In this document: positions 26,632 to 60,769 of the stretch, in pieces | How the letters are laid out: the number at the start of each line of letters is the position of its first letter | How positions within the stretch are numbered: the first letter of the stretch is position 1 | DNA from: Cheilinus undulatus | Lineage: Eukaryota > Chordata > Actinopteri > Labriformes > Labridae | NCBI RefSeq assembly: GCF_018320785.1 | Contig: NC_054884.1 | Location: 20,771,667 to 20,835,666, forward strand | Reading direction: 5' to 3' | Length of the DNA stretch: 64,000 bases | Made by a program: the position numbers and the translations under genes | Notes under the pieces: generated by a model | What the model was told of the DNA's origin: nothing | The model's database searches: none | The model's input: only the letters and a program-made list of their open reading frames with translations

Positions 26632-28030
26632 CAGTGCCTATAAAAAGTATTCACCCCCTTGGATGTTTTACCCTTTTATTGATTTTATAAATGAATCATG
26701 GACAATATAATTTGTCCATAATGTCAAAATGAAAACAAATTTCTAAAAAGTAATATCAGTTAAACAAAAATATATTTGGTAAAATAAGTGTGCATGAATA
26801 TTCACCCCTTTAAAGTCATTCACCTAATTTAAAAGAGATCCAGCAAGCTGGTGCTAGTAGTCTCACATATAGTGATATAGGGATCACCAGAGTGCAGTGA
26901 ATGTGTCACAAGTGATTGTAGTATAAAGACACCTGTGTCTGGAAGCTTCAGTCACTGGTCAATCAGTATTCCTGGCTACCATTACACCATGAAGACAAAA
27001 GAACACGCCAAGCAACTTAAAGGAGGTGTTACTGAAAAGTGTAAGTCAGGGGATTGCAACAGAAAAATTCCAAGGCACTGAATATTCCCCGGTGTTTATT
27101 AAATTCATCATAAAGAAATGGGAGGAATATGGCACATGTGTAAATCTCTAGATCAGGCCGGCCTCACAAACTGAGTGACCGTAAAAGGAGACTAGTGAGA
27201 GAGTAGTACAGAAAAAGTCACTGTTGAAGAAAAGTCATTAAATCTCTCTAAAATTTGCAAAAAATAATGTGGGAGACTCCATGGTTAAGAGGAAGAAAGT
27301 TCTTTGGTCTGATAAGACCAAAATTTGGCCATCAGACCATATACTATGTTTGGCAGAAACCACTGCACATCCCCACGGTGAAGCATGGTGGTGGCAGCAT
27401 CATGCTGTGGGGGCTGCTTCTTGACAGGCATCCTTGGAAGGCTTGTAAAAGTAGAGGGGAAAAAAAGAATGCGGTAAACTATAAGAAAATCCTGGAGGAA
27501 AATCTTAACTCAGTTTACAAGAGAACTACGGCTTGGGAGAGGATTTATTTTCTAGCACGACAATGACACGAAGCATACAGCGAAAGCTACAGAGAAGTGA
27601 TTTAAAGACAACAAGGTGAATGTTCTGGAGTGAAAACCCAGACCTCAATCCAACAGAGAATTGGTGGCTGGACTTGAAAAGGGCTGTTCACGTCCAATAG
27701 CCATGCAGCCTGACAGAGCATGAGCAGTTTTGCAAGGAAGAATGAAGTATAATTGTAGTGTCCAGATGTGCAACTTATCCACACAGACTCAGTGCTGTGA
27801 TTGCATGTACTAAATACTGACTTGAAGGGGTAAACATTTATAAAGTCACTTATTTTGCCTAACATATTTCTATCTGATTGATATGACTTTTTTAGAAATC
27901 TGTTTTCACTTTGACATTAAAAAGGAGTTTGCTCTATTTTCCAAAAAAAGCCAAATTATAATGTCCATGATTGATTTATAAAATCAATAAAAGGGTCAAA
28001 CATCCAAGGGGGTGAAGAGTATAGGCACTG
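26632..28030 (+). mobile_element. Tc1/mariner element, near full length, decayed
   Basis: Terminal inverted repeats CAGTGCCTATAAAAAGTATT / AGTATAGGCACTG frame 1.4 kb with TA on both sides (26630-26631, 28031-28032). Inner ends share TTTTATTGATTTTATAAAT. The plus-strand transposase region contains VKHGGGSIMLWG but has frameshifts and stops, so it is inactive. It lies just beyond the LGI1 stop. Confidence 0.88.
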
Positions 28031-28315: not shown

Positions 28316-28665
28316 TTAATTACTTAAATCAATCATGAGGTGCTCGTATATCTGAGTCTTTCCCTTGAAGCTGGATGCAAGCAGGAACACCCGGTCATCA
28401 ATGGAAACCAGAGAAAATGCCCGAGGTGCCTGGATATTCAGCTCCTGAGATGGGACAAACTGGCTCCTCTTGGTGTCCCATTGGTAGACCTGAGTCAGTG
28501 AGTAATCGCTGCCCAAGATGGCGTACTGCCAGTTGCCGATAGAGACGGGCTGGAACACCATGGAGCCACGGGAAGGAAATGTCTGGACCTCTTTGAACAT
28601 GGCGCCGTCCCAGCGCATCACCTTGGAGTCCCCGATGAATCTTGTCAGGCATATAAACAGCTCAC
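28316..28665 (-). CDS. lgi1: LGI1 coding exon 10 (terminal)
   Basis: Acceptor CAAAG; ends TAA (plus tta 28316-28318). Encodes [49 protein letters not shown] and [13 protein letters not shown], ending IDLSN. Confidence 0.95.
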
Positions 28666-31600
28666 CTTTGAAAAGATTCAGAAGACTGCTTAGCTTTCAA
28701 TTTCAGTAACTCAATCTGGCTCTGAAATAAAAGCAAGGAAACAGTTTACGTAATTCCAGATTAATTCATTTCTTGATATGAATTGCTCTAAAAGACTCCC
28801 TAAAAGACAAGCTGTTTCTATAGTAAGAAAAAACTCTTAGGTGTTTTACGGCTGTGAAATACAGTATGTGGAGGTTGTCTGGTAGTATGATATTTACTCC
28901 TACCACCTGTAAAATAAATGCCTGTGAAAGGCAGAGGAACTGGGAGTTTAAGTGTCATAAATTTACTGCAAGTTTAAAGAGGGGGGGTCTTAAATTATTT
29001 TGGTTCAATTAAACAAATGTTGGCACTGGATTAAAGTCCTCTGTTAAGCAAACAGCACCACCCCAGACGTTATTAATCATAGCATTAAACAATGAATAAT
29101 GGCTTACAGTGCCATATGGTGCTCCCAAGATAAACTTTTCAACATTGATACAGTGATTTAGTAATTAAGTTGTGTCCCAGTTCAAAGGCTCTTTTTCCGA
29201 ACAGTTGCATCCTTTCTTGAAATAAAAATGTGGGCTAACTAATATACTATTGTATTAGTATTTCTATTTTCAATTTTAATTATATTTTCAACTACAACTC
29301 CTGGCTAGCTTAAAGCTAACAACAACAGCTTCCAGTAACTGCAACTGAACACTGCCTGATCAACAGGAGACTACTGAATGCTAGCTACTGAGATAGCATG
29401 GGGTAGCGCATACGAACGCAGCAGCCCGGCGCTCCATCACTAGCAGCAAAACAACGCCCTACACTTACACCAGAACTGACAGCGTGCCCATGGAGTTTAC
29501 ATCTTTCCCGGCGGAGACTCAGAGACTGAAAGGAGAAGGATGCGGAGCAGCACGACACCTACAGCCAGTGGGGAGGAGGAAGAGACGACATTGTGCGAGA
29601 GGGCGGAAGCAGGGGCAAACAAGCCGGGCTGCAGGCTAGGCTAAGAGTGGCCCTACACAAACCTGTTGTACTGAGCATCTTTCTCCTGAGTGCCCACTAC
29701 CTCGCCAGCAGGATGGACTACGTGAGGCTGTGGATTTCTAACCACCGTTTGGACAACTGTGTTTGCTGCTATAGAGGAGACGGCCAAACGTAATTTCGTG
29801 TTTTTACAATGCAATGACAATAAACGACTATCTATCTATTTTCTTTCAAAATGTAAGTAATTTTTAGTCATTCATTGTGAGACCATTCCCCATCCCCTAT
29901 ACTGAAGCCAGCCACAAGGGGGCAGTTGAAATATTTAGCTATACTAGTACCACTTCCCTGTGGGGCTTCTCTATTACATGGCGCAGCTCGGTTTGACACG
30001 GCATGGCAGCCCAGCGCAGCAGGGGATTTCCTTTTCCACCACAACCAGGCTACCCATTTGAGGGTGCGTCTAGAGCTGATGATGCCGTGTTTTGAGCCCT
30101 CCTTGATCTCAACACTGTCTGGTCTGAGTGATTTTACATGGTGTTAAAGCAAAATTCAAATTGTAGACCAAAAACACTGCAAGCTGCTCTTATCACATTC
30201 TCTCTCTACCCCTTTTCTCTCTCCCTCTCTCTATCCCCAATCAGTAAACAAACAATAATTCACACTTATCTCGAAAAGGAGAGGATTTTCCTGCATTTAA
30301 GTTAAAGAACAATCTCCTTATTATTGATTTGTGGGTTTCTAAAGAGCAGTAGCTGAAAGGGGTAAATCCCCCCAGCATATCGGATCCTGCAAAGCGCTTC
30401 GACGTCAGCGCGGTGCTCTTGAAGGTGGGGCTGGCCTGCTTTGAGTGCGGCTCAGCGCGGCTAAACTGGTGATGGAAGTGCAAATCAGCATGGCTTGGTT
30501 TGGCTCGGCGCGGCCACAAGCCGTAGTGGAAAAGCCCCACTGGGGCTCTCATGTTGTCAATCTTTGTCAATCTTAGTCTGCTATGTCGTGATTGGTGCAA
30601 AACATGTGGGGAAAAGGTCTTTACATTCTCTAGTAATAAAAATGCACTTTTAAAGAGTATAAAGTGGAAAGTTGACAGAGAAATTTGAAGATTTCATCAG
30701 GATTAGGAAGATGAATACCCGTTTATCCTGCATAAAATGCAAATACTGTGCTGCACCAAACTGAACCAGACTGCTTGAAATTACCCATTAAAATCCAAGG
30801 GAGCATTCTTTGCTTTGGTTGTCAAAATAATATTGCACATATTACCTAAAACTAATATAACACACTGAATGGAGGGTTGATATAAAGGTCTATTGGTAGG
30901 AACAGATTGTGTGAGAGGGACCTGGATGCAGCAGAGGACCTCCACTTCATAACCGAAGTCAGACGAGCACTGCCATATCTCGCCTTCTAATACCGGAAGT
31001 CACTTAAATGGAACATCTTCTTCGTTGTTTTCTCCGTGTGTCACCGTGTTTCAAATATCACTTTGTACAGACATGATATGTGATGGGAGATTGGCTGGCT
31101 GGCCGGACACCGATGCCACCACCATGTTGCCAGAGAAAAGTCTGCTATGTCATTCAATACAGTAAACAAGGATTGTGCATGTTTTCAGAATAAAAAGCTC
31201 AAATGATTAGATGACTATACACACACACACACACATATATATATATATTTATACAAAGATATAATTTCAAAATAAAAAATATTTATACATATATGAAACT
31301 GTATTAAATATAAAATTACTTTATTTTAAATCATGGAGTACATCTTTTTTTTTATTTAACTGAGAAAATACAAGAAAGCAGATTCTGCTTCTATGTTTCA
31401 TTGTCAGCTATTATTCTAATATGAATCATTTATTATAAATGATTCATTGAAATCCATGTAATCTCATTATTTAAGCATTTTATTCCTAAAAAGTGTACAG
31501 TCCTTGTCTACTGTGTTGAATGATGTAGTGACTTGCCTCTGGCAACATGTTGGCGATGTCAGTGTCTGGCTGGCCAGTAAATCTCCTGTCGCATATCATG

Positions 31601-34600
31601 TCTGTGTACAGTGATACATGAATTTGAATCATAAATCGATTCATTAAAGAAAATGTAATGTTATCACTTTGCTTGTTAAGCCGAAAACTCGCAAATTTTT
31701 CATCTATTTATATTTCCTTATGTGGCAGACTTGCCTATATTAATATGGCGATGACACACGGAGAAAACAACGAAGAAGACGTTCAGTTCAACTGACTTCT
31801 GGTATTAGAAGATGAGATATCACGGTGATTTTCTGACTTCTGGTGTGAAGTGGAGGTCCTCGGCTGCATCCAGGTACTCTTGGATTGTGTTGGCCTTTTC
31901 TATTGGGATTTAACACTGTCAAATAAAGCTGATATTATCTTTAACAGCAATGTGTCATTTTTGGGGGGGTCCTTTTTATTACACAAGTAGAAGGAGGCTC
32001 CAAGAAAAAGGCTGGGAACCACTGCTTTAAAAGTATGTGACCCTCTGAAGTAGAACACAGCTAAAATGGGACTACAGTTGCAGCTCTCACCTTTGACCCG
32101 GAAGTGTTTGACGGAGAAGACATCTTCCATGTCAGGTATGTCTGTCCTGCGATCAAACTGTTTCTGGCTCCTGTTCCACTGGTAGACCACAGGTCTCTGG
32201 GAACTGCTGGACAGGATCAGGTGGGGTTTGTTTGAGATCTCCAAATATTCTACATCTGTGTCCCGGTACCATGGGTGAAGGGATTGGTGGGAGTAGAAAC
32301 CATTGCCGTTCCATTTGTACACCGTTGTGGAGCCAGCCTATGAGAGAAGAATGCACATGATGTCTCCCTGAAACATGCTTGATTTTAAAGACAATCAATG
32401 TAATCAGGCAAAAAAGTCATGAAAGATCAGTGAGTTAAAAATTTTAGCATATGAGAGGGTCTGTTTGCCTGAGTTTCCATGAGCATATGTGAGAGCATAT
32501 GTGAACATTTGGCAGTGCCAGGGTAATCAGCAGCTGTAAACTGACATGCTGCAGAGAAGGACACCAGAGGGAAGAAAATGCTGACACTGTGGGAAGAGTA
32601 GTTTAGAGGAGCAGAGTGCATACAGTCTGGCTACAATAACAGAAACACATGCACAGTATAATGTGATCAGTAGGGCTGCCCCTTGAAAGATAATGAATCG
32701 AGCTGTTGACTCCCGTTTTGTCTGTTGCAGTGCATATGCAAGTGTTTTAAACACAGAAAAATGCTGGAGCAATCACATTAAAGGGCAAAAATGTTAGGGC
32801 TGCAAGCTGTTCATTGTTCACATTGTTTTAACCCTTCAGAAAAAAAACTGATAAAATAGAAGACAAAAAAGCAACTTAAAAAAGTCAATCTGCTTTGGTG
32901 GAAAAGGAGAGACTCGGTCATGCTATAAGCATTGGCATAGCTTTGTATTCAACAGCCAATTTAAATAAAATTATATGCAGCATGTCACTAACACTCCTCT
33001 TAATGAGTTATATTAAAATGTTGCTTTGTGGTCTGATTGATTCAGGACTTTCAAATATAGGGAAAGCAAGAGCCACTAACCTTTGAGCTGTCCGCAATCA
33101 CAAAGAAAGACTCTCCGTCAATAATGAATGTCTCAATGTCGTTGGGTTTTCGAATCTTCAGGATGTCAATGTCCTGGATCTTGATGAACTTATTGGCGGA
33201 GATGTCTCGTTTGTAAATGTGTGAGCCACCAAAAAGCTGAGCCACAATAACAAAGAGGTGGTTATCGATTACCATGGGTTTACACACCACAGTGGAGGTG
33301 CCTAAATGAGAGAAGAGTAGACATCAACACAATAGAATATATAAATACGGCATGAAAAATCATTTAAAATAATTTTTATTTTAAAACACAGTATTAGAAA
33401 GGTATTGAAAACTATAAAACTGCATCTCTATGCAGATGACATTGTTGTATACTTGGATGCCCTTTTTCCAAGTCAAGTTATTTGTAAGTTACAGAAAACT
33501 GCTATGTGCCACCAAACAGACTTTAAAATGTAATATGTGCCATTTTAACATGAAAAAAGTGAATATAAATTACCGCCAAAGTATTTGTGAGTGATGACTT
33601 TCTAAATTATTAAAAGTAAAGTCAGATCCCCCTACACTCTATGTTTGTTGTTCTCAGTTCTGTGTTTGTGCTTGTCTCTTATGGGGCTGTTTTACAGGGT
33701 TGGGGCTACAGGCTCCTTATCTCAGTGAAGGCCAGTGTTAAAGGGGACCCATTTGAGTTTGTTGCTGAAAAACACTATAGTATAGGATTTTTACATGTCT
33801 AAAAACCCCTCTGTTTCAGCCATGCACAAAACAAACTGTTTCTGTGTCTGTGGCTTTAAATGTTACTGAGCTGTCTGACTCTGCCTCTCTCAGGAAATGG
33901 ATGTGGCTCTCCCGATCCTTCTCTCAGCTGGCATCTGTGAGGAGGCTCAGGAGAGGAGGGCGGAACTTTCTTCCAAGCAGGGAGGGCCAACCAAACCTGG
34001 GGGCGGTGCTAACTCCCCACATGACATCATGAGGGGAAAATCTGAGAACAGCTTGTTTAAGCACACATTTTCTGAAAGGTCGAGAATGGGCGGGAGGGTT
34101 CTGGTATTTGAGGGTATTGTGGACAGGCCAGGGGCACATATTTTTGTTAGAAAAGCCTGAAGAAGTGATTTTTGCACAATTTGTCTCCTTTAGTGTTTCA
34201 GTATATCAAGACTTTTTGGACAGTACTATGCCTTCAACTTAGTGCATGCCTCCAACAAAGTGCAACATCTACCAAATCAAGTCACTTATAGTTTTAAGAC
34301 AGCTCTCACTATGAATAACACAAACCCTATGGCTTTTAACCAATCTAGAACTTGATTGAGGGAGTCAGTTTAAGTATTGAATAAGATAATGAGAGTCTTT
34401 CTTATTGTTAAAGAATGTGTGCAGGCTGCTTTTTTAGGTGTTAAAACTTAAGTGATTTAGTTTAGCACTTTTCTTTTTGTATTCCCCAAAGAGCAGCTTA
34501 CCATATTAATACAATACAATCAACTGACACATTATTTCCCCCTGTAAATAATTCTGATTGGCATATTTATTCCCCCTGTAAACAATTCTGATTGGTATTT

Positions 34601-59222: not shown

Positions 59223-60769
59223 CAGCCCCCTCCAAAAGTATTGGAACAGTGAGGCTAATTCCTTTAATTTTGCTGTAGACTGAAAACATTTCAGTTTGAC
59301 ATGAAAAGATGAACATGAGACAATAGATCAACATTTCAGCTTTTATTTCCAGGTATTTACATCTGGATCTGCTACACCACTTAGAAGACAGTACCTTTTG
59401 TTTGAACTCACCCATTTTTCATGTGAGCAAAAGTAATTTAAAATGTGACTGACAGGTGTGTTTTGTTGCCCAGGTGTGTCCAATGACATTGATTATTCAC
59501 ACAATAAATAGTACTGAATGTCTACACTCAGTTTCAGATTTGTGTTTTGCCTGTGCAGACTGCATATAGTTAGAGGTGTAACCAATATGACAACCAGAGA
59601 TCTTTCTATGGGTGAAAAACAAGAAATTCTGAAGCTGAGAGAAGATGGAAAATCAGAGTAATTTCACAAACATTGGCGACCGCCAGTACAACCTTTGGAC
59701 CGTCCTGAAGAACATAGAAACCACTGGTGTACTAAAAAACAGAGGTCAAACGGATAAACCAAGGAAAACAGCATCAGTTGATGGTGGACAAGAGCTGTAA
59801 AGAAATACCCTAAAACAACTGTTAGTGACATCAGCAGCAAGTACAGAGGCTACACCAGACAATGCTAACCACTCATTAGCAAGAACAGGAAGGCCAGGCT
59901 GGAATTTGCCAAAAAGTACAGAGATGAGCCTAAAAAATTCTGCGACAAAATTGTATGGACTGATAAGACAGAAACTAACCTTTACCAAAGTGATGGAAAG
60001 GCTAAAGTTTGGAGAAAGAAAGGGTCTTCTCATGATCCCAAACATACAAGCTCATCTGTGAAACACAGTGCAGGTGATGCCATGGCTTGGGGTTGTGTGG
60101 CTTCTACTGGGACGGGCTTGTCAATCTTCAGTGAAGATGTAACACATGATGGCAGCAGCAAAATAAACTCAGAAGTCTGCTAATTTAAAGAAAGATGCAA
60201 CCAAAATGATTGGGAGATCCTTCATCATGCAGCAAGATAATGACCCAAAACACACTGGCAAATCAACAAAGCAGTTCATCAGGGGCAAGAAGTGGGACAT
60301 TTTAGACTGGCCAAGTCATTCTCCAGACTTAAATCCTATAGAACATGCATTTTAGCTGCTAAATAGGAGACTGAAGGGAGTAAACCCCCAAAGCAAACAA
60401 CTGAAAGAGGCTGTGGTGAAAGCCCAGAAAAGCATCACAAAAGAAGAAAGGAAAAATTTGGTGATGTCAGTGGGTCACAGGCTTCGTGCAGGTATTGCAA
60501 GAAAAGGATTTCCAACTAAATATTAAGGTTTACTCACTTTAATATATTTTGAATCTATCTTTTCCAATACTTTTGCTCACCTAAAAATGTGTTGTTCCAT
60601 TACAGATAAAGCTATCTCTTAAGTTGTGTATCAGATCCAGATGTAAACACCTGGAAATAAAAGTTGAAATGTAATTGTCTTTTTGTGTCAAACAAAAAGT
60701 TGATGTTTTCAGTCTACAGCGAAAATAAATGCATTGGGCCCACCGTTCCAATACTTTTGGAGGGGAGTG
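59223..60769 (+). mobile_element. Tc1-like element, full length, decayed (FRA10AC1 intron 8)
   Basis: Ends CAGCCCCCTCCAAAAGTATT and the inverse of CCAATACTTTTGGAGGGGAGTG, with TA on each side (59221-59222, 60770-60771). Long inverted repeats of roughly 200 bp include CATTTCAGTTTGACATG / GTGTCAAAC-type and ATTTCCAGGTATTTACATCTGG / CCAGATGTAAACACCTGGAAAT segments. The transposase between has many stops and shifts (traces: MTTRDLSMGEKQEILKL). Confidence 0.85.

Follow-up and report, generated by a model that had tools for sequence, protein, structure and literature searches.

A probable intron gain in one of two lgi1 copies of Cheilinus undulatus, with a likely 11-bp duplication at the intron edges

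Introduction

Intron gain in teleosts is already a known kind of event. Intron turnover is raised in these fish, and intron 3 of notothenioid slc26a2 was made by a transposon with gt-ag in its repeats (PMC12357937). The lgi1 intron considered here resembles the slc26a2 case, where gt-ag lies in direct and inverted edge repeats, as a putative gain in a single fish lineage with gt-ag in edge repeats, and a later insertion lengthened the slc26a2 intron; the two differ in that slc26a2 carries an identified element, inverted repeats and direct repeats of 4 nt, whereas lgi1 has an 11-bp repeat and no recognised element at its edges. In PMC3443670, gained introns share with lgi1 short direct repeats at both edges and an insert of unknown source, the difference being that no intronless orthologue has been seen for lgi1. 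The vertebrate ATP2A1 intron, as told in PMC4974935, goes back to a tandem duplication of AGGT, and in both genes AGGT is repeated at the two edges and the protein is unchanged; unlike in ATP2A1, no exon duplication longer than 11 bp was found in lgi1, though decay could hide one. Serpin introns of ray-finned fish (PMC2746811) are likewise fish gains, more than one of them in two genes and mostly at (C/A)AG sites, but they measure 68-178 bp and hold no known complex repeats, whereas the lgi1 introns measure 743 and 3,425 bp. Across thousands of surveyed genomes, PMC9860276 reports no pattern of introner gain in vertebrates, and a literature search of limited scope found nothing naming both 'lgi1' and 'intron gain'.

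It is seldom that a vertebrate intron gain is caught with the scar of its birth still legible. The intron described here sits in an epilepsy-linked gene of which this fish has two copies; the other copy is uninterrupted and offers a natural comparison within the genome. From the comparison of sequences within a single genome, that of Cheilinus undulatus, we consider it somewhat more probable than its converse that intron 9 was gained in one teleost lgi1 copy and was born with an 11-bp duplication.

Results and Discussion

Gene model of lgi1

The window is the whole 64-kb stretch of DNA analysed, and window coordinates refer to it. The ten predicted coding exons of lgi1, counted from the ATG of exon 1 that we picked as start codon, join into an open frame of 541 codons with no internal stop. 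Pfam searches identified EPTP repeats within lgi1 itself. Its flanks in the window carry Fra10Ac1 and EamA families, which fits the LGI1 neighbourhood. Exon 9 (32091..32337, minus strand) corresponds to human LGI1 residues 354-441 and exon 10, stop codon included (28316..28665, minus), to residues 441-556. Between them lies predicted intron 9 (28666..32090, minus), a GT-AG intron of 3,425 bp in phase 1 that splits a Gly codon; joined at the 11-mers described below, the two exons align to human LGI1 with no gap at the junction. Intron 8 (32338..33080, minus) measures 743 bp.

Direct repeat at the edges of intron 9

The 11-mer TCAAAGGTGAG stands exactly on both edges of intron 9 on the minus strand, and the window holds these two exact copies and no third. 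The upstream copy (32086..32096, minus) contains the donor TCAAAG|GTGAG, which reads on as TCAAAG|GTGAGA, and the downstream copy (28661..28671, minus) contains the acceptor TCAAAG|GTGAG, which reads on as TCAAAG|GTGAGC. When up to one mismatch was allowed, the window gave three matches against 1.78 expected. In intron 9 the in-register match at the junction extends over 11 bp; the remaining introns of lgi1, eight in all, show matches of 0, 0, 0, 1, 1, 2, 1 and 3 bp, the last value being that of intron 8, so the direct repeat of intron 9 is longer than those of the gene's other introns, as looked for under repair of a staggered break. The 11-mer itself is not rare in this genome of 1.17 Gb, with 594 forward and 522 reverse places; when the pattern is reversed, the counts are 394 and 415.

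The level of matching expected by chance was estimated with 10 million introns simulated from assumed splice-site frequencies, which gave a probability of 4.7e-5 per intron for an in-register run of at least 11. With an assumed total of 200,000 introns this amounts to a few to some ten chance introns per genome; the 11-bp match is unusual for a single intron, yet expected by chance in a few per genome. If the exon reads TCAAAG|GTGAG, the probability that donor and intron end agree by chance comes to about 4e-4 under assumed frequencies, and the bulk of this value comes from TCAA ahead of the acceptor AG. In Drosophila, repeats of at least 5 bp were found in 25% of gained versus 26% of conserved introns (PMC3443670), near-equal rates that make direct repeats alone weak evidence.

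Splice-site scores, which use assumed frequencies, place the intron 9 donor (10.7) at the top of the nine lgi1 donors and its acceptor (3.2) at rank 46 of 234 intronic AGs, under the five other lgi1 acceptors compared; among the nine introns only intron 9 has A at acceptor position -3. Such a pattern is what one would expect if duplicated coding sequence had been recruited for splicing. These values bear on the possibility, which we regard as doubtful, that the intron was gained and its match is accidental: it would have entered at AG|GTGAG, a proto-splice site, where GTGAG would be the product of selection on the donor and TCAA at the intron end a coincidence. The simulated rate accommodates such a case, intron 9 was singled out because of its match, and intron 8, which is also extra, has no such repeat. 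However, judged on the assumed frequencies, TCAA-AG makes a poor context for an acceptor, and selection would not be expected to favour it. If the intron was indeed gained, the 11-bp match is rather probably a duplication scar. The probabilities that we attach to this alternative and to those discussed below overlap one another.

Three minor observations concern related motifs. The donor of intron 8 (33076-33086, minus) reads TCAAAG|GTTAG, one base off TCAAAGGTGAG; TCAAAG precedes both extra introns, 8 and 9; and TCAAAGGTGAG occurs three times with 50-bp spacing at C3:1646192-1646302, perhaps in a minisatellite.

Paralogous loci and the direction of change

A protein query made of exons 8-10, searched in the one genome, recovered the window copy (C20) and loci on C6, C22, C5 and C4, with identities to the window copy of 83%, 59%, 63% (a row of 235 residues) and 51%, respectively. 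In the codon alignment the intron 9 site (K-G|E) is uninterrupted in all four paralogous loci, and so is the intron 8 site (S-K|A). The C6 copy reads GTCAAATCAGACC at the intron 9 site and thus differs from TCAAAGGTGAG. We take human LGI1 exon 8 to start near codon 280 and to span the intron 9 site.

The teleost repertoire is reported to comprise two copies each of lgi1 and lgi2 and a single lgi3 (PMC3691968). We take the C6 locus as the second lgi1 copy; a tree of six rows grouped C22 and C4 against the rest and left the C20-C6 fork open, so this pairing rests on identity. The window copy lacks six human LGI1 residues near YLEI, a stretch over which its alignment to the C6, C22 and C5 copies is gapless; the gap against human was rejected as a link between C20 and C6 because the same residues are missing in other paralogs.

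According to two papers, human LGI1 has eight exons, as do cat LGI1-LGI3, and the structure is similar in other mammals. Four paralogs without introns at either site, together with the eight mammalian exons against ten coding exons here, indicate that introns 8 and 9 were most likely gained in this lgi1 copy, and for intron 9 we hold a gain to be highly probable. The original prediction was of an inserted intron that had duplicated a pre-existing site and was bounded by an 11-bp direct repeat: the exact copies sit where it placed them and the gain is supported, and the insertion scar is likely, though unproven.

That intron 9 is an old intron, retained here and lost from the C6 copy, from the other lgi genes and from mammalian LGI1, appears improbable. 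Large-scale studies of a small number of vertebrate genomes are reported to have found losses only and no gains (PMC3257199), in keeping with such a history, but the four paralogs, and mammals too, would need separate losses at two positions. Two gains amount to two events against many losses.

At the C5 lgi locus (C5:11180928-11183670) the match to query residues 3-33 lies 1.9 kb upstream of that to residues 35-271, and this gene may carry an intron elsewhere in the region; a paralog seemingly split at another position suggests that introns in the lgi family move.

Repeat content of intron 9

The claim that intron 9 is packed with mobile elements is right for its inner part; at the edges no repeat was recognised. 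Nearest the donor lies an interspersed repeat (31888..32024, minus), presumably hAT-like, whose first bases by eye are CAGTGGTTCCCAGCC; these begin at base 67, 66 bp inside the donor end. The 215 bp on the donor side match eight other places in the genome at 72-91% identity, seven of which begin at query base 55-62, and no second terminus of this repeat was found in the intron at up to five mismatches. A palindromic repeat element follows (30913..31875, minus; limits approximate, the 31875 side being set by the query), with long matches 79-85% identical; its arms are 85% and 77% complementary and it has many genomic matches. A second repeat of about 552 bp (29288..29839, minus) has steady limits and matches 84-89% identical. 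The mid-intron matches come from the 40 of 4102 candidates that were scored, and all of these 40 stay about 620 bp or more away from the acceptor. The acceptor-side edge (28666..29000, minus; 335 bp) has itself as its sole genomic match, an absence of others that does not prove rarity.

The genome search thus recognised no repeat before base 55 from the donor and none in the last 335 bases. We rejected the idea that a visible element left TCAAAGGTGAG behind as its target duplication, since the recognised repeats stop short of both 11-mers. The ends of recognised elements do not coincide with intron ends, as they would in a transposon-made intron, though a decayed element may be present. No inverted repeat was found at the intron edges (the score was equalled or exceeded in 203 of 500 shuffles).

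The edges also bear on a tandem duplication of an exon segment containing AGGT, which would have created both splice sites and which we consider unlikely. AGGT does lie within the direct repeat at both edges, as this model has it (PMC3443670), but nothing similar extends past the 11-mer, either between exon 10 and the start of the intron (the score was equalled or exceeded in 171 of 500 shuffles) or between exon 9 and the intron end (242 of 500), a signal that decay could mask.

The original prediction also called the intron recent, and this finds no support: the nested elements are 79-89% identical to their best-scored relatives, among the 40 of 4102 candidates that were scored, which argues against a very recent birth. 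This suggests that intron 9 is not very young; the elements could also have arrived with the insert.

Among minor searches, the last 56 nt of the intron were considered as an exon of another gene and dropped, as they matched only themselves and their open frame is not that of lgi1. A 224-kb genome sample gave no match to the intron, a result of little weight since the wider genome search gave many. Viral contigs gave no match, and genome contigs gave 12 pattern matches and no relatives.

Proposed origin

Under the reading that we favour, a gain with a duplication scar, DNA would have been inserted at a pre-existing exonic TCAAAGGTGAG and 11 bp duplicated, either by fill-in of a staggered break or by transposition of an element that has since become unrecognisable. 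The TCAAAGGTGAG copy upstream would then have become the donor and the downstream TCAAAGGTGAG the acceptor, and with both splice sites supplied by the two copies the protein would be unchanged. Mobile elements would have expanded the intron afterwards or arrived with the insert. A narrower version is that the insert was not a transposon and entered at a staggered break, where the 11-bp fill-in made both sites at once and stayed exact after elements now at 79-89% identity had settled inside; we put this forward tentatively, as a plausible course that falls a little short of even. Among the findings against a scar, no intronless sequence bearing TCAAAGGTGAG was seen, the C6 copy differing at the site, and the extra intron 8 has the run of just 3 bp noted above.

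Alternative acceptors and other features of the window

Upstream acceptors may be used in place of the predicted one, as stronger candidates have their first bases at 28921 (12.4) and 28721 (7.6), the latter leading to a stop within a few codons. That the insertion disrupts lgi1 and a different junction is spliced would fit these stronger sites, but it is very unlikely, with flanking exons that are open and conserved and a joined frame free of stops.

Elsewhere in the window, two open stretches on the plus strand (60167-60523 and 27242-27563) resemble transposase remnants, which we take to be of Tc1/mariner type.
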